This document shows, one piece after another, positions 3-10,394 of a DNA stretch of 64,000 nt. The first letter of the stretch is position 1. Each line of letters begins with the position of its first letter. The notes beneath the pieces are model-generated. The model was not told the origin of the DNA and did not search any database. It worked only from the letters and a program-made list of their open reading frames with translations. The DNA is taken from positions 30,928 to 94,927 of the forward strand of contig JAUIJA010000007.1 in the NCBI GenBank assembly GCA_030431055.1, given 5' to 3'. Made by a program: the position numbers and the translations under genes. Origin of the DNA: Bacteroidia bacterium. GTDB lineage: Bacteria; Bacteroidota; Bacteroidia; Flavobacteriales; Flavobacteriaceae.

Positions 3-623
3 TTTGAACATAATGATAAAGAAACTGTATATAAAGTATTAAAATCACATCTTATCAGTCGAAAAGCAGTCGATATTTTATTAAGAGAAAATTTTACTGT
101 AGATGATTTTAACGATTTTATAAATGAACGTAAAGAAACGATACTTAATGTTATTTTTAAAACAGTTATTGATGACTCGGTAGAATTACCAGAAGAATTA
201 GACAAATTAAATAAGGCAATTGAACAAATTGAATTACAATTAAGAAGTTTAATATTAAAACAATTAAACCTTATTTCAAGAAATGATATAAAGGAAGTAT
301 TACCTTCTAATATCTATGATAACTTTAGTCAAAAAGTAAATAGAGAAAGAAAACGCAATCCATCTTTAGTAAATGATAATATTGAAATGGCCAGTTATTG
401 GATGCAATTTTCAGACTTGCAAGAGCTATTACAAATTATTACAGCTAAAACACATTGGTCAACTTTTGAAAATATCTTTGGTTCTAAAGAAAAATTAACT
501 ACTGAATTTAATGACATGGCTAATCTTAGAAATTCATTAAGACATTCACGAGAAATTGACATTATTGTTAAAATGAAAGGAGAAGCTTCGATACTTTGGC
601 TAAAACAACAAATGAAATTGTAA
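3..623 (+). CDS. C-terminal part of a DUF262/GmrSD-like protein with a HEPN-like end (5' truncated by window)
   Basis: The frame is open from base 3, so this is the last 206 residues of a longer protein. The first ATG inside it, at 387, is internal. The stretch around residues 40-50 (DDFNDFINERKE) resembles the end of DUF262 (GmrS-type) regions. The last 40 residues contain RNSLRH, an Rx4H motif with Asn after Arg, as in HEPN RNases. From memory, DUF262 proteins often end in this way. The stop codon lies 2 bp before the ATG of the hsdR remnant, so this gene was probably translated with a type I restriction operon whose hsdM and hsdS would lie to the left. The family assignment is an inference from short motifs. 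Confidence 0.5.
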   Translation, partial: FEHNDKETVYKVLKSHLISRKAVDILLRENFTVDDFNDFINERKETILNVIFKTVIDDSVELPEELDKLNKAIEQIELQLRSLILKQLNLISRNDIKEVLPSNIYDNFSQKVNRERKRNPSLVNDNIEMASYWMQFSDLQELLQIITAKTHWSTFENIFGSKEKLTTEFNDMANLRNSLRHSREIDIIVKMKGEASILWLKQQMKL

Positions 624-2431: not shown

Positions 2432-5400
2432 ATGCTATCAGAAAACACCATAGAACTTTCTTTAATAGACCAATTAGTAAGTCAAGGTTATACATATTTT
2501 AATGGTACAGATATTTCACCTATTGGAGATAATCCAAAACGAGAGAGTTTTAATTCTGTATTATTAGAAAGTCAGTTTAAGGAGTCACTTAAAAAACTAA
2601 ACCCTACTTTACCAGAATCTGCTCGTGTGGAAGCCTACCAAAAGGTAATTAATCTAGGTACAGAAGACATTATGGAAAACAACGAACGTTTCCATACCTT
2701 GCTAACAAATGGCGTTACTGTAGAATACACCAAAGAAGGCAGAACCAAAGGGATTAATGTAAAGTTGCTTGATGTGCAAAACCCAGAGAATAATAACTTT
2801 TGCGTAGTCAATCAATTAGTCGTTAAAGAAAACAACAACGAGAAACGTTTTGATGTAGTGATTTATATCAATGGGTTACCATTGGTGTTTATAGAACTTA
2901 AAAGTGCCACAAGCGAAAAAGCAACCCTACGTAGAGCCTACGACCAAATACAGAATTACAAAAAAGCAGTACCAAGCATTTTTTATTACAATGCCATTTG
3001 TGTAATTAGTGATGGTATAGATGCGGCAACCTCTAGTGTGTCTGCACCATTTTCACGTTTCCTTGCTTGGAAAGCACCAAAAGAAGAGCCAAACGAGGTA
3101 AGAACCCAATTGCAAATTCTTACCGAGTATATGTTGAACATAAAAACATTAGTAGAACTAATACGCTACTGTACGGTATTTGAAAAAGAGGAAAAGAAAA
3201 ATGAAGAGACAGGTATTGTATCCCAAATAAAAATTAAAAAAGTAGCGGCTTATCATCAATATTACGCTGTTCAAAAAGCAGTTGCGCAAACCTTACGAGC
3301 AACTCATTCTGAAGAAGGAGACCGCAAAGTAGGTGTCGTTTGGCATACACAGGGTTCAGGTAAATCCTTGTCTATGGTGTTTTATAGCGGACAAATTATT
3401 ACGCATCCGCAAATGGAAAACCCTACCATTGTCATATTAACAGACCGTAACGATTTAGACGACCAACTGTTTGGTACGTTTGGGAATTGTATTGGCTTAT
3501 TAAGGCAAACACCTGTACAAGCCGATAGTAGAGAACACATCAAACAATTATTAAAAGTCTCTGGTGGTGGCGTGATATTTACCACCATTCAAAAATTTGC
3601 ACCAGCAGAAGGTAACGTGTACGAAACCTTATCCGATAGAACAAATATCGTGGTTGTGGCAGACGAAGCACATCGTAGTCAATATGGCTTCTCTGGTCGT
3701 GTCGTTGAAACCGAAGAAGGATCAGAAATAAGATACGGTAACGCTAAATATTTACGCGATGCCTTACCCAATGCTTCTTATATAGGCTTTACAGGTACAC
3801 CTATCGAAAAAGAGGACAAATCCACACCACAAGTTTTTGGAGATTATATAGATGTATATGATATTAAACAAGCGGTAGATGATGGTGCAACAGTACCTAT
3901 AAGTTATGAATCCCGTTTAATTAAAATTAAACTAGACGAGGAAACAACTAAAGAGTTAGATGATGAAATAAACGATATTGAAGGGGCAACCGAAGAGCAA
4001 ATAGAAAAAGCCAAAAAGAAAACTGCTACTATTGATGCGGTAGTTGGGCATCCAGACCGATTGAAAGATGTGGCTAAAGATATAGTCACCCATTTTGAAG
4101 CACGACAAAAGGTATTTGAAGGTAAAGCAATGATTGTTGGGATGACCCGTAATATTTGTGTGCGTCTTTACAATGAAATTATAGCCTTAAAACCAGAATG
4201 GCATAATACCGATTTAGACAAAGGTGCAATCAAAGTCATAATGACAAGTTCTACTGACGATCCAGCATTGTTTCAACCGCACCATACCACTAAAAATCAA
4301 AGAAAAGATTTAGCAACCCGTATGAAAGACCCTAACGACGAACTTAAATTGGTTATTGTTCGCGATATGTGGTTAACTGGTTTTGATGCACCAAGTATGC
4401 ACACGTTGTATGTTGACAAGAAAATGCAAGGGGCAAATTTAATGCAAGCTATTGCAAGAGTAAATAGGGTTTATAAGGACAAACCAGGTGGTCTAGTGGT
4501 AGATTATATTGGTATTGGTCAAGACCTACGTAAAGCTATGGCAACCTATTTACAAAGTGGCGGAGAAGGTTCGCCTGTTGTAGATATAAAAGAAGCGATT
4601 GCAGGAATGAAAGAGAAATTTGAAATCGTAGAGCAAATGTTTAACGGTTTTGATTTTAAACAATATTTTAAAGTTGATACCGCACAAAAACTACAAGTGT
4701 TGTTAGGTGCGCAAAACTTCATTTTAGCAGACCAAAAACTAAAAGACCGCTTTTTAAAAGAAGTAACGCTATTATCAAAGTTATTCGCAATGTCAATACC
4801 AAGTCCAGATGCTGAAAAACTAAAGGATGGTGTCGCATTTTTTCAAGCTGTAAAAGCAAGGTTGAATAAGTTTTCTAGTAATGGTGTAAAATCAGATTAC
4901 GAAGTAGAAACCGCTATCAAACAAATTGTTGATGATGCACTGTCTAGTGATGGTGTTATAGATGTATTTGAAGCAGCAGGAGTAAAAGCACCATCAGTAG
5001 GTATCTTATCAGATGAGTTTTTGTTGGAAGTAAAAAATATGCAACAAAAAAATATTGCATATGAATTACTTAAAAAACTTTTAAGTGATGAAGTAAGAAT
5101 TAGAAAAACAAAGAATCTCTCACAAGGAAAGAAGTTTTCAGAAATGTTAGAATCGGTTGTAAAACGCTACCATAATAATCAAATAGATTCCGCTCAAGTA
5201 CTAGCAGAACTATCAGAAATCGCAAAGGAAATGCGATTAGAAGATGCTAAATCAGATGAGTTAGGTTTAACACCAGAAGAATATGCTTTTTACAGCGTCT
5301 TAAAACAAAACGAATCAACCAATTTTCTAGAAGATGATAAAATGAAAGAGTTGATTCACACCATTGTGGATGTCATTAGAAAAAACGCTACGGTTGACTG

Positions 5401-5551
5401 GAGCAAACGAGATGACGTAAGAGCTAAATTAAGACTAACTGTAAAGAAAATACTAATGCGTTACGGTTATCCACCAGATGTAGCCAAAATGGAAGCTGAC
5501 AGAGTGATTGCTCAAAGTGAAAATTTAGCTGATGTTTTTAGTAAAGAATAG
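2432..5551 (+). CDS. hsdR: Type I restriction enzyme, HsdR subunit (translocase/nuclease)
   Basis: This 1039-residue protein has the length and layout of HsdR. The N-terminal nuclease domain shows D141 and E155-x-K157 (FDVVIY ... FIELKS), followed by the QxxxY motif (QIQNY). The superfamily 2 helicase part has motif I HTQGSGKS near residue 305, motif II DEAH near residue 410, GFTGTP, and motif VI QAIARVNR. With HsdM and HsdS it would cut foreign DNA after ATP-driven translocation. Neither partner is in the window; they would have to lie to the left of base 1. Residues 33-67 are encoded by DNA identical to the upstream remnant. The frame is intact, so the subunit should be functional if its partners are present. 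Confidence 0.95.
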   Translation: MLSENTIELSLIDQLVSQGYTYFNGTDISPIGDNPKRESFNSVLLESQFKESLKKLNPTLPESARVEAYQKVINLGTEDIMENNERFHTLLTNGVTVEYTKEGRTKGINVKLLDVQNPENNNFCVVNQLVVKENNNEKRFDVVIYINGLPLVFIELKSATSEKATLRRAYDQIQNYKKAVPSIFYYNAICVISDGIDAATSSVSAPFSRFLAWKAPKEEPNEVRTQLQILTEYMLNIKTLVELIRYCTVFEKEEKKNEETGIVSQIKIKKVAAYHQYYAVQKAVAQTLRATHSEEGDRKVGVVWHTQGSGKSLSMVFYSGQIITHPQMENPTIVILTDRNDLDDQLFGTFGNCIGLLRQTPVQADSREHIKQLLKVSGGGVIFTTIQKFAPAEGNVYETLSDRTNIVVVADEAHRSQYGFSGRVVETEEGSEIRYGNAKYLRDALPNASYIGFTGTPIEKEDKSTPQVFGDYIDVYDIKQAVDDGATVPISYESRLIKIKLDEETTKELDDEINDIEGATEEQIEKAKKKTATIDAVVGHPDRLKDVAKDIVTHFEARQKVFEGKAMIVGMTRNICVRLYNEIIALKPEWHNTDLDKGAIKVIMTSSTDDPALFQPHHTTKNQRKDLATRMKDPNDELKLVIVRDMWLTGFDAPSMHTLYVDKKMQGANLMQAIARVNRVYKDKPGGLVVDYIGIGQDLRKAMATYLQSGGEGSPVVDIKEAIAGMKEKFEIVEQMFNGFDFKQYFKVDTAQKLQVLLGAQNFILADQKLKDRFLKEVTLLSKLFAMSIPSPDAEKLKDGVAFFQAVKARLNKFSSNGVKSDYEVETAIKQIVDDALSSDGVIDVFEAAGVKAPSVGILSDEFLLEVKNMQQKNIAYELLKKLLSDEVRIRKTKNLSQGKKFSEMLESVVKRYHNNQIDSAQVLAELSEIAKEMRLEDAKSDELGLTPEEYAFYSVLKQNESTNFLEDDKMKELIHTIVDVIRKNATVDWSKRDDVRAKLRLTVKKILMRYGYPPDVAKMEADRVIAQSENLADVFSKE
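2528..2634 (+). repeat. Direct repeat copy 2 (107 bp, in intact hsdR)
   Basis: This is the identical partner of 722-828. The distance between the copies is 1806 bp, and the interval carries the ATPase gene. Recombination between the copies would delete the ATPase gene and restore one complete hsdR. Confidence 0.9.
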
Positions 5552-5648: not shown

Positions 5649-7196
5649 CTAGCTAGCTAATAAAGTGTTTTTTTCACGCAACTCATTCAAATACTTCGCT
5701 GCATGTTCAGGTGCTAAAGCTTCAGTAGCTAGAGTAGGAGGTACACCCACATAATCGGTAAAGACTTCTTGCATCACTTGTTCTACTAAAAGCTGGTTAG
5801 CGGCCGTAGTTACAATGCTATCATGTATGGTAAATAGCGGTACTTTAGGGTGTAACTTTCGCATCTTTTTTGCCACCACTTCAAGCATAATATAACTCTC
5901 AATTTCCTGTAGCAATAAGGGCAACAAATTAGATTGTTCTTTCTTAATGGCCTTTAAAACGGCATACACCTCAGGGAAGTGGTTTCGAAACAATCGTTTC
6001 GGGGCAGCTTCTTTTTGCCCTATAAATTGGTTCGGGGTAAACAATACTTGAAAAACAGCACTTTTCAATATTTTTCTATCGGTAACAGGTATCCCTTCGG
6101 CTTCAAATAAGGTTTGCAAGTATTCATACAACACACCTTTTTGTACCTTTTCTATGTACGCGTCAAACCTTGTATCTACTAGGGTTTTCTTAATTTCTAA
6201 TAACATAAAGTAAGAAATACATTTATGTATAGCTAACAAATCTATATGCAATAGCGGAAATACTAATTGATTAGTAGAAGATGTATTAGAAATAAAAGAA
6301 TGAAGTACTTTGGCTTTTTTGGGTTTTTTACATACAAATTCGCGCTCGTTTTTATTTTTTTTAGCTTTTTTTATTTTTTGGCTATCCCAAAACGACGGTT
6401 GTAATAACAAGCTAATCAAATACGGCTGACTATTTTTTAAATCAATCGAAACCAATGGTTCACCATTATAAGTTAAAAAATTGCGCAACACGCTTCGCAT
6501 ATTCGTCAAAACACTATGAAAGCGTTTACCATTCTCACTAATCAAACAACCATAAGAACCTTCTTGCAGGCGCAGCATACTCAACATCCCTTGTTGGTAC
6601 TGCAAATCGGGTTGTTTGTATTGCTTCACATAATCTCCTTTTCTCCCTGTTACATCAATGGCTTGGTAGTCATATACCAATTTAAAATCCCATAGGGAAA
6701 TATTGCCTTGTTTTAAAGCCAATTCTTCTTCTAAAAACGCCTGCGCCGCTTTAGCATCAATAGTCAAGCCATTAGCAAACCACTCTTCCAAAAAGCGGTA
6801 ATGTTTAATAGTTTTTTGTTGTTTTCTATATTGAGCGTTCAAATGCTTTTGCATATGAAAAGTTGTCACTTCATAAATAGTGTAATGCTTTCCATAAGGC
6901 AATAAAAGTTTATAACCTTTACATTTAAAGTTAGAAACATAAACTTCATCACAAGCAAATAAACCGCTTTGCAAACCATAGTCGATATATTTTTTGTAAT
7001 CAGTAAATACATCTTGTAAAGCACGGGCACTTATAGGCACAAAACCGTCAATTATAGTGAGTTGTTTATTATAAACGGGTAAGTTTACAATCAAATGAAT
7101 AATGTAGAGTAATTTCTCTTTTTCAAACCCATTAAAAGGCACATGAGTTTGCAAATGTTGCCCTAAAGGCAAATCCTTCGGAATAAATAATTTCAT
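5649..7196 (-). CDS. Divergent family A-like polymerase (palm/fingers motifs, no exonuclease)
   Basis: I do not know a name for this 515-residue protein, but its C-terminal half carries, in order, motifs like those of family A polymerases. Near residues 222-245 is NGKRFHS, similar to the TGRLSS region. At 251-260 is IDLKNSQPYL, a motif A candidate with D252. At 374-386 is a motif B candidate with R374, K378, F382 and F386, the same R-x3-K-x3-F-x3-aromatic spacing as Pol I R754/K758/F762/Y766. At 455-460 is FTIHDS, a motif C candidate with H458-D459; HDS is closer to T7-type RNA polymerases than to the HDE of Pol I. No 3'-5' or 5'-3' exonuclease motif is seen in the first 220 residues. A Lys-rich insert lies near 274-297. 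The D-to-SQ spacing in motif A is two residues longer than in Pol I, so activity is not assured. It is transcribed towards hsdR and away from the heptamer array. Confidence 0.6.
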   Translation of the reverse strand: MKLFIPKDLPLGQHLQTHVPFNGFEKEKLLYIIHLIVNLPVYNKQLTIIDGFVPISARALQDVFTDYKKYIDYGLQSGLFACDEVYVSNFKCKGYKLLLPYGKHYTIYEVTTFHMQKHLNAQYRKQQKTIKHYRFLEEWFANGLTIDAKAAQAFLEEELALKQGNISLWDFKLVYDYQAIDVTGRKGDYVKQYKQPDLQYQQGMLSMLRLQEGSYGCLISENGKRFHSVLTNMRSVLRNFLTYNGEPLVSIDLKNSQPYLISLLLQPSFWDSQKIKKAKKNKNEREFVCKKPKKAKVLHSFISNTSSTNQLVFPLLHIDLLAIHKCISYFMLLEIKKTLVDTRFDAYIEKVQKGVLYEYLQTLFEAEGIPVTDRKILKSAVFQVLFTPNQFIGQKEAAPKRLFRNHFPEVYAVLKAIKKEQSNLLPLLLQEIESYIMLEVVAKKMRKLHPKVPLFTIHDSIVTTAANQLLVEQVMQEVFTDYVGVPPTLATEALAPEHAAKYLNELREKNTLLAS

Positions 7197-7355: not shown

Positions 7356-7516
7356 ATAATTGATAATCCCTAATTCGTAATTGATAATTCATAATTCACA
7401 ATCCCTAATTCATAATTCATAATCCCAAATCCATAATTCCTAATCAATAATTCATAATTCATAATCCATAATTCATAATTCATAATTCCTAATTCGTAAT
7501 TGATAATTCGTAATTC
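7356..7516. repeat. Heptanucleotide tandem array, 23 units of about ATAATTC
   Basis: The stretch divides exactly into 23 consecutive 7-base units (161 bp) with no break in phase. The commonest unit is ATAATTC; variants such as CTAATTC, GTAATTG, ATAATCC and ACAATCC differ by one to three bases. The unit carries TAATT, so the array is extremely AT-rich and could unwind easily. It lies between the terminator of the 249-residue gene and the polymerase-like gene, 160 bp upstream of the latter's start. Role unknown: it could be a slippage-prone array, a protein-binding array or an origin-like element. Confidence 0.9.
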
Positions 7517-7525
7517 ATAAAAAAA

Positions 7526-7583: not shown

Positions 7584-8333
7584 TTAAATCACTTCCACAA
7601 TGTTTAAAACATTATAAGCACCATTGTTTAAGGCATACTGTACACCATTAACCTCCTGAAAAAACTCCACCAGCATAACCACAAAAGCAGTCCCACTTCC
7701 TGTAGGCACACCCGTAGGCGTTAGCGTAACAGCACTCACAGTACTATCAATAGGTAGATTAACCTCATTACTATAAGCAATGTCTGAGGCACCAGTGGAA
7801 AAATCCAAATTCACAAACCCACTTTGCAACCCAAAATGTGTAGCACCTTCTGGGTAACGAATTTGTTCGTTAGGTTTCAATGCCGTAATAGTAATTTCTC
7901 CAGTAGTAGGAGACACCGTAAAAGGAGCATAAAACACACTTTTAAAAGTCGCTCGATTATTAAAATCAAAACCTTTCAAAAGTTCCTTCCCAGTTGCAGT
8001 AGATAGTCCTTCTCCCACATTACGTTCGCCTCGTACAGAAACTAAATCCTGATTTTTAATATCTGACATCAGTTTCATCAAACGACTCGAAAGTTTACTG
8101 TCTTTTGCACGAAACACAAAACTACTCAAAGAATCGCGTAACAATTTGCCAGAGCTAGCACTTCTGCCAAATTCACTACCATTCTCACGAGTCCTCACAA
8201 AAGCAGGATCGTTCATAATTCGGTTTTTACTCACGCCACCTTTGGTGCGCACAAAGTACCCATCGGCACTCTTGTAAAAAGTAACGTTGTCTAACGTACC
8301 TTCAATCTTAAATAAGCTATTGTTTTTAGCCAT
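7584..8333 (-). CDS. Conserved flavobacterial protein of unknown function (249 aa)
   Basis: I recognise the opening, with MAKNNSLFKIEGTLDNVTFY followed by a RTKGGVS stretch, as typical of a family seen repeatedly in Flavobacterium genomes, but I know of no function. It has no signal peptide or membrane segment. Residues 1-100 are basic with many Arg, Lys and Ser. Residues 115-249 are rich in Thr, Val and Gly with alternating hydrophobic residues, which suggests beta structure. Its start faces the small HTH-like gene on the other strand across a 243 bp divergent intergenic region, and it is followed by its own terminator and the heptamer array. The basic N-terminal half could bind nucleic acid, but that is a guess. 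Confidence 0.6.
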   Translation of the reverse strand: MAKNNSLFKIEGTLDNVTFYKSADGYFVRTKGGVSKNRIMNDPAFVRTRENGSEFGRSASSGKLLRDSLSSFVFRAKDSKLSSRLMKLMSDIKNQDLVSVRGERNVGEGLSTATGKELLKGFDFNNRATFKSVFYAPFTVSPTTGEITITALKPNEQIRYPEGATHFGLQSGFVNLDFSTGASDIAYSNEVNLPIDSTVSAVTLTPTGVPTGSGTAFVVMLVEFFQEVNGVQYALNNGAYNVLNIVEVI

Positions 8334-8467
8334 AAAAAAAAGTATTAAAATTAATAATACTCAAAGATAAATCATTTGTGAACCCCAGTAAAACCAGTAT
8401 TTCCCATTGTGTATAAAAGTGTCAATAATTTCCTTAGAGGTATCTTTTTTCTACACTTTTTTTTGCG

Positions 8468-8576: not shown

Positions 8577-8765
8577 ATGAAGAGAATTTGTATTACAACT
8601 TCCGATGTAGCTTTAATCACAGGTAAAACCTCTAGACAAGCGAGAAACATTATCAACGACATTAAAGATTATCTCGGCAAGTCAAAACACCAAGTGGTGA
8701 CTGTAAAAGAATTTTGCCAGTACATGGGCATTCCCGAAGAAGATATAGCAACATATATCAAGTAA
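8577..8765 (+). CDS. Small helix-turn-helix-like protein (62 aa)
   Basis: The 62-residue product has a region SDVALITGKTSRQARNIIND (residues 9-28) with the helix-turn-helix look of MerR/excisionase-type DNA-binding proteins, followed by VTVKEFCQYMGI, like the short second motif of such proteins. Related small proteins are widespread in Flavobacteria, as far as I recall, and have no assigned role. It is divergent from the 249-residue gene and is followed at once by a strong terminator and three 11 bp repeats. Such a protein could control the divergent pair or bind the repeats. Excisionase-like small proteins accompany mobile elements, but no integrase is present here. Confidence 0.6.
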   Translation: MKRICITTSDVALITGKTSRQARNIINDIKDYLGKSKHQVVTVKEFCQYMGIPEEDIATYIK

Positions 8766-8837: not shown

Positions 8838-8870
8838 GTAGATACTATGTAGATACTAGGTAGATACTCC
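8838..8870. repeat. Three 11 bp direct repeats (iteron-like)
   Basis: GTAGATACTAT, GTAGATACTAG and GTAGATACTCC follow each other without a gap, close to one helical turn apart; a partial fourth copy precedes them. They lie between the small HTH-like gene and the 3' end of mnmE. The one-turn spacing suits repeated binding of a protein on one face of the DNA. Confidence 0.7.
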
Positions 8871-8897: not shown

Positions 8898-10310
8898 TTA
8901 TTTCCCGATACAAAAATTAGCAAAAATATTACCTAAAAGCTCGTCGTTAGTAACTTCGCCTGTTATTTCTCCAAAATAGTACAAAGCAGAGCGAATATCA
9001 ATCGCCATTAAGTCGGAAGAAATACCAGCATCTAATCCCCATTTTACTTTTTGGATTTCCTCTAAAGCTTTTAGTAAAGAATCGTAGTGACGTGTATTCG
9101 TAACTATAGTTTCATTATTGCGTAAAGCACCAGTATTTACAAACGAAAGCAAAGTGTTTTTTAATTCGTCAACACCTGTTTTTTGTTTAGCAGATAAAAA
9201 TAAAATATTCGGAATTTCATTTTCAATATGTTGTTTCACATCGTCAGAAAGTTTATCCGCTTTATTTCCAATAATCGTCAACGCTTTTTGCGGATATTTA
9301 TTTTTTATTTTTTCAATTTCAATTTTCAGTTTTTCAAGATTTGTTGCATTCAAATCAGAACTATCCACTAAAAATAGAACTACCTGAGCTTGTTCAATCT
9401 TCTCAAAAGTTTTTTTAATACCAATGCTTTCAACATGATCTTGCGTATCGCGAATTCCCGCTGTATCAATAAATCGGAAACCGATACCATCAATAACCAA
9501 TTCATCTTCAATCGTATCACGAGTAGTTCCAGCAATATCACTTACAATCGCTCTTTCTTCGTTCAATAATGCATTTAATAATGTCGATTTCCCTACGTTA
9601 GGTTCGCCTACAATAGCAACCGGAATTCCGTTTTTGATAACGTTACCCACAGCAAAAGAATCGATTAATCGTTTTAATACAAATTCAATTCGGTTTAATA
9701 ATTCGTGAAAAGCAGTTCTATCAGCAAATTCCACATCTTCTTCGCTAAAGTCTAATTCTAATTCAATTAACGAAGCAAAATTCAATAACTCTTCACGCAA
9801 TTTGGCAATTTCATTACTAAATCCGCCACGCATTTGCTGCATCGCAATTTGGTGACTCGCTTCATTGTCAGATGCAATCAAATCGGCAACAGCTTCGGCT
9901 TGTGATAAGTCTAATTTGCCGTTTAAAAAAGCACGCAAAGTAAATTCTCCCGCGTCGGCCATTTTAGCGCCTTTACGCAATAATAACTGAATAATTTGTT
10001 GCTGAATAAAAGTAGAACCGTGACATGAAATTTCTACTACATTTTCACCAGTATACGAATTCGGACCTTTAAAAATAGAAACTAAAACTTGGTCAATAAC
10101 TTTTCCAACTTGCCCTGAGCCTGTCGAAGGGTCAACAATATGTCCTAAGTGAATTGTATGCGTTTTTTGTTGACTCAAATCTTTACCAGAAACCGATTGA
10201 AATACTTGCGAAGCAATACGAATTGCGTCTTTACCCGAAAGTCGAATTACAGCAATGGCGCCAGCGCCAGATGGAGTAGCTAAAGCAACAATAGTTTCTT
10301 GTGGAATCAT
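8898..10310 (-). CDS. mnmE: tRNA modification GTPase MnmE (TrmE/ThdF)
   Basis: The protein, 470 residues from the chosen ATG at 10310 (MIPQETIVALATPSGAGAIA), acts with MnmG to modify the wobble uridine of certain tRNAs (5-carboxymethylaminomethyl group). The N-terminal domain binds the folate one-carbon donor. A GTPase domain begins with GEPNVGKST (about residue 230) and has DTAG, TTRD and NKAD motifs. The protein ends in FCIGK, the Cys needed for activity. A frame extension to 10334 is possible but lacks family support. Oddly, the stretch PSTGSGQ after GHIVD is encoded by a dispersed palindrome inserted in frame. The 3' end of this gene is the boundary of the accessory region. Confidence 0.97.
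   Translation of the reverse strand: MIPQETIVALATPSGAGAIAVIRLSGKDAIRIASQVFQSVSGKDLSQQKTHTIHLGHIVDPSTGSGQVGKVIDQVLVSIFKGPNSYTGENVVEISCHGSTFIQQQIIQLLLRKGAKMADAGEFTLRAFLNGKLDLSQAEAVADLIASDNEASHQIAMQQMRGGFSNEIAKLREELLNFASLIELELDFSEEDVEFADRTAFHELLNRIEFVLKRLIDSFAVGNVIKNGIPVAIVGEPNVGKSTLLNALLNEERAIVSDIAGTTRDTIEDELVIDGIGFRFIDTAGIRDTQDHVESIGIKKTFEKIEQAQVVLFLVDSSDLNATNLEKLKIEIEKIKNKYPQKALTIIGNKADKLSDDVKQHIENEIPNILFLSAKQKTGVDELKNTLLSFVNTGALRNNETIVTNTRHYDSLLKALEEIQKVKWGLDAGISSDLMAIDIRSALYYFGEITGEVTNDELLGNIFANFCIGK
10113..10131. repeat. Dispersed palindrome inserted in frame within mnmE
   Basis: The 19 bp CCCTGAGCCTGTCGAAGGG is an imperfect palindrome that I recognise as a short repeat scattered in many bacterial genomes. 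Here it lies inside the folate-binding domain of mnmE and is read through as DPSTGSGQ without breaking the frame. Confidence 0.8.
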
Positions 10311-10394
10311 AAGATTTATTTTATTCGCATGCAAAGATACAAAAGTTATACTTTGGGCGTGCCCTCATTTTATTCGGTCAGGCTGTTCACTTTA

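Follow-up and report, generated by a model that had tools for sequence, protein, structure and literature searches.

A stand-alone polymerase of predicted family A fold in integrase-bearing Bacteroidota islands and its candidate role in their replication

What would a polymerase gene that stands alone, with no exonuclease, be doing in an accessory region of a flavobacterial chromosome? The question is raised by a stretch of 64,000 nucleotides from Bacteroidia bacterium (Flavobacteriaceae; GenBank assembly GCA_030431055.1, contig JAUIJA010000007.1, positions 30,928 to 94,927), hereafter the window, in which an earlier note, made from the letters alone, had picked out a 515-residue protein with family A motifs at 5649-7196 and put it forward as a candidate for an undescribed system. 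The open reading frame (ORF), here called POL, is present and intact, and its accessory setting was rightly recognised. Its relatives are carried in mobile islands. The reading we favour, with moderate confidence, is that the POL family, with its predicted family A fold and its genes beside integrases in mobile islands of Bacteroidota, serves as the replication primase-polymerase of those islands.

The polymerase, its motifs and its predicted fold

A database search returned 493 homologues of POL at E<=1e-3, among them a 91% identical one elsewhere; scoring was confined to the 7997 candidates with the largest number of shared words, and the 120 best hits were listed. Alignments were made of 39 sequences first and then of 111 more diverse ones, the latter drawn from the listed homologues (57 of 120) and from ORFs of the loci described below (53 of 76), with the window's own POL added. 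Ten positions of the larger alignment are invariant, namely R225, D252, Q257, Y357, K378, L429, Q430, E433, H458, and D459, so that the two catalytic aspartates and the motif B lysine are kept in 111/111; S460 is kept in 110/111 and R374 in 101/111. D252, K378, and H458-D459 occupy the places of the motif A aspartate, the motif B lysine, and the motif C histidine-aspartate of family A. Motif A runs from D252 to S256-Q257, a gap two residues longer than in D-Y-S-Q; motif B (R374/K378/F382/F386) has the +4/+8/+12 spacing, and motif C reads T-I-H458-D459-S. The column of F386 (Pol I Y766 equivalent) holds 101 phenylalanines and 10 tyrosines, and that of F382 (Pol I F762 equivalent) holds F85 L19 M3 Y2 I2. 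Position 259, two after the invariant motif A glutamine, is aromatic in 105/111 sequences (Y99, F5, W1), the remainder being L5 and M1, and is glutamate in 0/111. Given the 493 homologues and the near-invariance of these residues, the motifs are not a product of chance, and the residues and Pol I-like spacing named at the outset are as described.

Searches of Pfam, NCBIfam, and PADLOC gave neither an exonuclease nor a polymerase family for POL, the matches listed being at chance level (best E 0.01), and no Pfam polymerase family was found in the 39 members. Among the PHROG families, phrog_4756 (function not known) was matched by 15/39 members and a PHROG named RNA polymerase was weakly matched by 5/39 (best E 0.0012). 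For sequence profiles it is thus largely true that no polymerase is significantly matched, an outcome the earlier note had named as refuting its reading, the exceptions being these PHROG hints. A predicted structure, which the note had itself proposed as a test, does match. The confident model resembles the palm and fingers of family A, which together with the two catalytic aspartates and the Rx3K of motif B accords with a superfamily A fold. All 50 rows shown by Foldseek and by VIA for the model are DNA polymerases, and the BFVD structural matches include a Barba-phage protein named DNA polymerase (rank 11, E 7.2e-6). The N-terminal domain is probably a winged helix, as its predicted helices and strands (26-42, 52-54, 57-63, 67-77, 80-82, and 94-97) follow the winged-helix order. 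The ordinary PolA of the window genome is encoded on a separate contig (G000:C35), and the description of POL as a stand-alone family A-type polymerase other than PolA holds on the predicted fold. The polymerase gene is under purifying selection, the ratio of non-synonymous to synonymous substitution rates (dN/dS) being 0.07-0.18 in 12/15 pairs, with the remaining three not computable.

Gene order and ends of the islands

Genes were called around the POL match in 92 loci and in the window and were searched with cluster profiles; this sample contains one locus without a called POL ORF (L048), a few duplicates, and some short contigs. An integrase lies upstream of POL on the same strand in 62 cases and downstream on the same strand in one, with opposite-strand integrases downstream in 6 and upstream in 4, and a small helix-turn-helix (HTH) protein of the HTH_17 type is found upstream on the same strand in 41. 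One representative of each was classified with Pfam, the integrase as Arm-DNA-bind_5, Phage_int_SAM_5, and Phage_integrase and the small protein as HTH_17. A tRNA-Ser(tga) gene stands directly before the integrase in 20/60 loci scanned, and other tRNA genes occur in many others.

The far end of the islands was found through c19, the 249-residue neighbour of POL in the window, a homologue of which (about 60% identical) lies 6-19 kb downstream of POL on the opposite strand in 16 loci (coordinates read by eye). The genomes behind 26 loci, 25 of them distinct (L016 and L095 being from the same genome), were searched, and 15 far ends were fetched. In 15/15 islands the right end comprises c19 (-), a 62-residue HTH gene (+) homologous to c32 of the window, GGTGACC arm repeats, and attR, the last being a copy of the tRNA-Ser 3' end, TC(T/A)TTCTCCGC. 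The repeats stand as two copies at -81/-69 in 14 islands and as a single exact copy at -68 in one. At the left end, the same att core is present in 15/15, with GGTGACC repeats about 100 bp further in, and a tRNA was called by ARAGORN in 13/15 (none in L018 and L021). The islands measure 11.2-24.1 kb. As they were chosen for having c19 on the same contig, these counts describe the tRNA-Ser type and not all relatives.

Near-identical islands occur in different genera. The POL DNA is 97.0-99.9% identical between records named for different genera (L008/L010, L011/L012, and L014/L015), and identical in L015 (Algibacter) and L032 (named only to family). Five locus pairs were compared by blastn: in L011/L012 the match begins at the tRNA itself; in L004/L006 and L008/L010 it starts no more than 81 bp ahead of the tRNA, and in the two L015 pairs about 790 bp ahead, with a further 73-76% identical stretch shared upstream. 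L004 and L006 are 96% identical as far as the POL stop codon, from which point the cargo diverges, so POL is the last gene of the conserved block. Its distribution is patchy, with matches in 16/199 genomes of the genus (protein query) and 29/299 of the family (profile query). In a scan that took in 68 of the 163 ORFs listed and showed the 25 commonest families, the cargo is led by restriction-modification of types II, IIG, and III and by metal-related families. Pfam scans of the ORFs after POL that have at least 100 residues and lie whole within the fetched stretch covered two islands (the other 13 were scanned partly or not at all). In the smallest, L026, the five such ORFs between POL and c19 are DUF6660, a TonB receptor, a FUR-type regulator, a PEMT-type methyltransferase, and a P-type ATPase; the four scanned in L007 include one type III restriction DEAD/ResIII protein.

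c19 itself has 3875 homologues and a predicted structure without clear relatives. A c32 gene lies within 1.5 kb of it in 19/30 loci fetched (L206-L235), and the genes that follow c19 differ (by eye, Cas9-like in L230 and hsdM-like in L224). c19 has the look of a marker for the ends of several types of island. The company that POL keeps with the 249- and 62-residue genes, raised in the earlier note, was confirmed.

Relatives also stand in other settings. In distant branches (L022, L033, L051, L055, L058, and L067 among others) POL is accompanied by clusters of DUF3871 proteins (12 loci) and of AAA_24 ATPases (8 loci), which is possibly a fuller replication module. In Flavobacterium soyangense (L016, 8001-17330), POL has as neighbours ORFs resembling Cas1, Cas2, and Cas9 (named by eye) together with a repeat array. 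Relatives also occur in very large phage genomes (L085 and L091; LR756511, LR745206, LR756504, and LR756502, in records up to 642 kb). On the viral contig L085 (341 kb), the relative directly precedes, with a 4-nt overlap, a gene having a DNA polymerase PHROG match and lies near an ATPase with a weak clamp-loader match, a context which suggests that it may prime or assist beside a separate polymerase.

The copy beside mnmE

In the window (Table 1), the order c32 <, c19 >, POL > is found without an adjoining integrase, as it is in L002 and L003 and, so far as the partly readable context shows, in L016, which is a separate branch.

Table 1. Features of POL and its surroundings in the window
Feature	Position	Strand	Remarks
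POL, stand-alone family A-fold polymerase (predicted)	5649..7196	(-)	515 aa, intact ORF
POL, N-terminal part	~120 aa		Winged helix suggested by secondary-structure order
POL, polymerase part	residues about 124-498		Motif A D252; motif B R374/K378/F382/F386; motif C H458-D459-S460
c19, 249-aa protein, function not known	7584..8333	(-)	Homologue near far end in 15/15 tRNA-Ser islands examined
AACCCCAGTAAAA, 13-bp site	8381..8393	(.)	Same site in L002 6966-6978 and L003 1095-1107
c32, 62-aa HTH-like protein, divergent from c19	8577..8765	(+)	Homologue between c19 and pre-attR repeats in 15/15 islands
Three GTAGATACT direct repeats, 11-bp period	8838..8868	(.)	Between c32 and mnmE 3' end
mnmE, chromosomal neighbour	8898..10334	(-)	Insertion on this side predicted at its 3' end

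The 13-bp site is confined to this arrangement among 277 fetched loci (window, L002, L003, and overlapping copies); in L003 it is inverted and on the other side of c32. The direct repeats, within the 132 bp between the end of c32 and mnmE, may correspond by position to the GGTGACC arm repeats found in tRNA-Ser islands. In L002, a copy of the tRNA-Ser att core lies between two c32 genes (6240-6610), the window-type block directly following the attR end of another island. In an 85-row tree of POL, the window falls within an 11-row clade (support 100/100) whose sister, under an arbitrary root, is a 24-row group mostly with integrase; the integrase is also present in other branches.

The genes found after mnmE vary across species of the same genus, comprising xis and int in G015 and G004, a restriction-like gene in G005, and in G010 c32 and c19 with another, 359-residue gene in the POL slot. 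mnmE is therefore a likely insertion site, and its 3' end (window 8898; also L200, L201, L202, and L204) looks like an insertion hot spot in the genus. This genus is read as Flavobacterium, since L003 and L016, which both carry that name, coincide with genomes assigned to it. On the contig, neither a second boundary of the block nor, by 13-mers, a second att copy for the mnmE side was found. Since no integrase adjoins it, the window copy (POL, c19, and c32 at mnmE) may be immobile, mobilised in trans, or the end of a larger element.

The ATAATTC heptamer array between c19 and POL, which the earlier note had noticed and linked to the polymerase, is real (7356-7520, 23.6 copies, 77% matches), but its membership of the system was rejected: by eye it is absent from three relatives with the same arrangement (L002, L003, and L016), and runs of three units are found at 3 sites of the 2.43 Mb genome, counting the one in the window. 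On the other side of POL, the first ~70 hsdR codons occur twice (window ~626-871 and 2432-5551), as a 5' fragment (ORF 596-871) and as the start of the full gene, and flank an AAA_14/DUF4143 gene (980-2428), the result of either a duplication or an insertion within hsdR.

Proposed role, its rivals and its meaning

The kind of protein to which POL belongs is already known, and the term "undescribed" was too strong. The transposon-virus polymerases (TV-Pols) of Iyer, Abhiman, and Aravind (2008), whose listed Bacteroidetes members come from Polaribacter, Psychroflexus, and Cytophaga, had a primase-polymerase role predicted for them on the ground that they exchange with AEP prim-pols (PMC2579912). 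Like POL, they are family A-related proteins of 400-600 residues, free of nuclease domains, and carried on mobile elements that have integrases of the lambda type and hot spots of restriction-modification; the absolutely conserved arginine before the palm has its probable counterpart in R225 (111/111). The main text of that paper differs in describing no whole islands bounded by tRNA att sites and bearing arm repeats and c19/c32 ends, and the D5-like helicase linked or fused to some members was found in none of the ORFs scanned in L026 and L007. A search of Ma-LMM01, a listed TV-Pol host, with the A2 profile found nothing, in a search run without a positive control. Among the matches listed from the open-access literature, none described the island type with its five core genes and both ends, the steric-gate tyrosine, or the lack of a replication helicase seen in L026 and L007.

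The CCPol-MP and PolA-SSB primases of SCC elements are likewise A-family polymerases of integrative islands (PMC7581432, PMC10061031); CCPol primes when paired with the small protein MP (PMC7581432), and its primer-independent synthesis is proven and lost on mutating the two catalytic aspartates (PMC7581432, PMC10061031). CCPol, which uses deoxynucleotides, retains the equivalents of E710 and F762, whereas in the POL family the glutamate is replaced, mostly by tyrosine; CCPol is also accompanied by an OB-fold partner, encoded between polymerase and helicase in the PolA-SSB type, by a helicase, and by a serine recombinase, whereas POL islands use a tyrosine integrase, and no such partner or helicase was found among the scanned ORFs of L026 and L007 (small ORFs not folded). 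PICMI and other phage satellites share a core of integrase, AlpA-type HTH protein (PF12728 being accepted in the PICMI model, HTH_17 in POL islands), and primase, and are likewise small, integrated, and endowed with anti-viral cargo, deletion of the PICMI primase lowering the circular copy number; they differ in their DUF3987/DUF5906 primase, fis insertion, and Vibrionaceae hosts, POL taking the primase slot and tRNA genes being the sites found (PMC10803314). AEP PrimPol-PV1 elements are also integrated, often in tRNA genes (14 of 25 with precise borders), with a primase hallmark that is unrelated to POL, and the RepE/RepS and PrimHYQ elements likewise lack a helicase (PMC5862659). The divergent family A polymerases divPolA1 and divPolA2 have no active exonuclease, divPolA2 having an N-terminal domain of unknown kind, but they are phage-borne and not core genes of integrase islands (PMC11348598).

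The PICMI core-gene parallel, the TV-Pol prediction, the priming by CCPol, and the L085 context are the reasons for reading POL as the islands' replication primase-polymerase. The integrase and small HTH protein would excise the island as a circle from the 3' end of the tRNA gene, or, in the relatives of the window copy, from that of mnmE; the N-terminal domain would bind the island origin, and the polymerase domain would make primers, needing no 3' end to start from, and then extend them. Host helicase and replisome would complete replication, and a raised copy number may aid transfer, perhaps in phage particles or through the conjugation machinery of another element, no transfer genes having been seen in L026 and L007.

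Several observations weigh against this proposal. POL is not recognisable by a PolA profile, which is the usual test though not the structural definition, hhalign giving E 0.033 against PolA and a non-significant 0.027 against T7-type RNA polymerases, values hardly better than the 0.058 against an unrelated integrase. Comparing the N-terminal sequence with solved structures gave no confirmation of the winged helix. Among the ORFs scanned in L026 and L007, Pfam matched no family of replication helicases, relaxases, or capsids, and unwinding must therefore come from elsewhere. c19, present in 104/199 genomes of the genus with up to 9 matches each, is far commoner than POL (16/199) and so does not depend on it. 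No integrase lies near the window POL, the genome's 4 matches to the islands' integrase being on other contigs and at most 29% identical, and no full uninterrupted empty site was found in the 9 other genomes of the genus examined for one.

The active site keeps a different reading in view. Motif C is HDS in 110/111 POL sequences as against HDE in the PolA of 14/14 Bacteroidota genomes, and with the aromatic residue after the motif A glutamine it makes up a pair of T7-type features present in the family. The site leans towards the RNA polymerase side, although the choice of sugar is not readable from sequence. It is nonetheless unlikely that POL is a T7-like single-subunit RNA polymerase transcribing the island genes instead of a replication enzyme. 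Its T-I-H-D-S-I-x-T-T recalls the IHDS of T7 RNA polymerase and of two of five other phage RNA polymerases (pattern unmatched in the other three), position 259 is matched by Q-H-F or Q-H-Y in 3/6 T7-type enzymes (again unmatched in three), and divPolA2 has been suggested as a possible RNA polymerase (PMC11348598); yet no promoter-binding domain was recognised, the structural matches shown are all DNA polymerases (an RNA polymerase fold being still compatible), and the int-xis-POL core places the gene in the primase slot of satellites.

That the window copy is a stranded island remnant, an intact ORF with no current role, would suit the finding of no second att copy for the mnmE side by 13-mers, the lack of a close integrase in the genome, and the place of its integrase-less clade beside a mostly integrase-bearing group, but the retention of all catalytic residues, the 91% identical homologue, and the recurrence of the c32-c19-POL order with the shared 13-bp site in L002 and L003, which show the arrangement itself to be maintained, make this a slightly poorer prospect still. 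Least probable is an accessory, for instance anti-phage, function akin to that of the neighbouring restriction genes: the window POL does have as neighbours a gene for type I restriction and one for an AAA_14/DUF4143 protein, with matches to candidate defence families, and the islands carry restriction cargo, but POL has no PADLOC match, lies downstream of int/xis in most loci, and stays with them where the cargo swaps exactly at its stop codon.

A bolder form of the primase-polymerase proposal is offered tentatively and is itself doubtful. POL would be a one-protein replicon starter, initiator and primase in one, in which a winged-helix initiator is fused to a family A polymerase whose steric-gate glutamate has become tyrosine, and which could start chains from ribonucleotides (or from either sugar) at the origin of Bacteroidota satellite islands that lack a helicase, as a living intermediate of DNA polymerase I and T7-type RNA polymerase.

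E710 of Pol I discriminates against ribonucleotides and is retained in CCPol (PMC7581432), and the POL family offers an active site without this glutamate. TV-Pols have been proposed as primase-polymerases that stand near the ancestor of both DNA polymerase I and T7 RNA polymerase (PMC2579912), and in 2020 the CCPol authors knew of no other TV-Pol member that had been biochemically characterised (PMC7581432). With its invariant active site and islands with both att ends, the POL family provides a large, well-bounded set in which that proposal can be tested, as well as a means of recognising a type of island through which restriction and metal genes are reshuffled within Bacteroidota.
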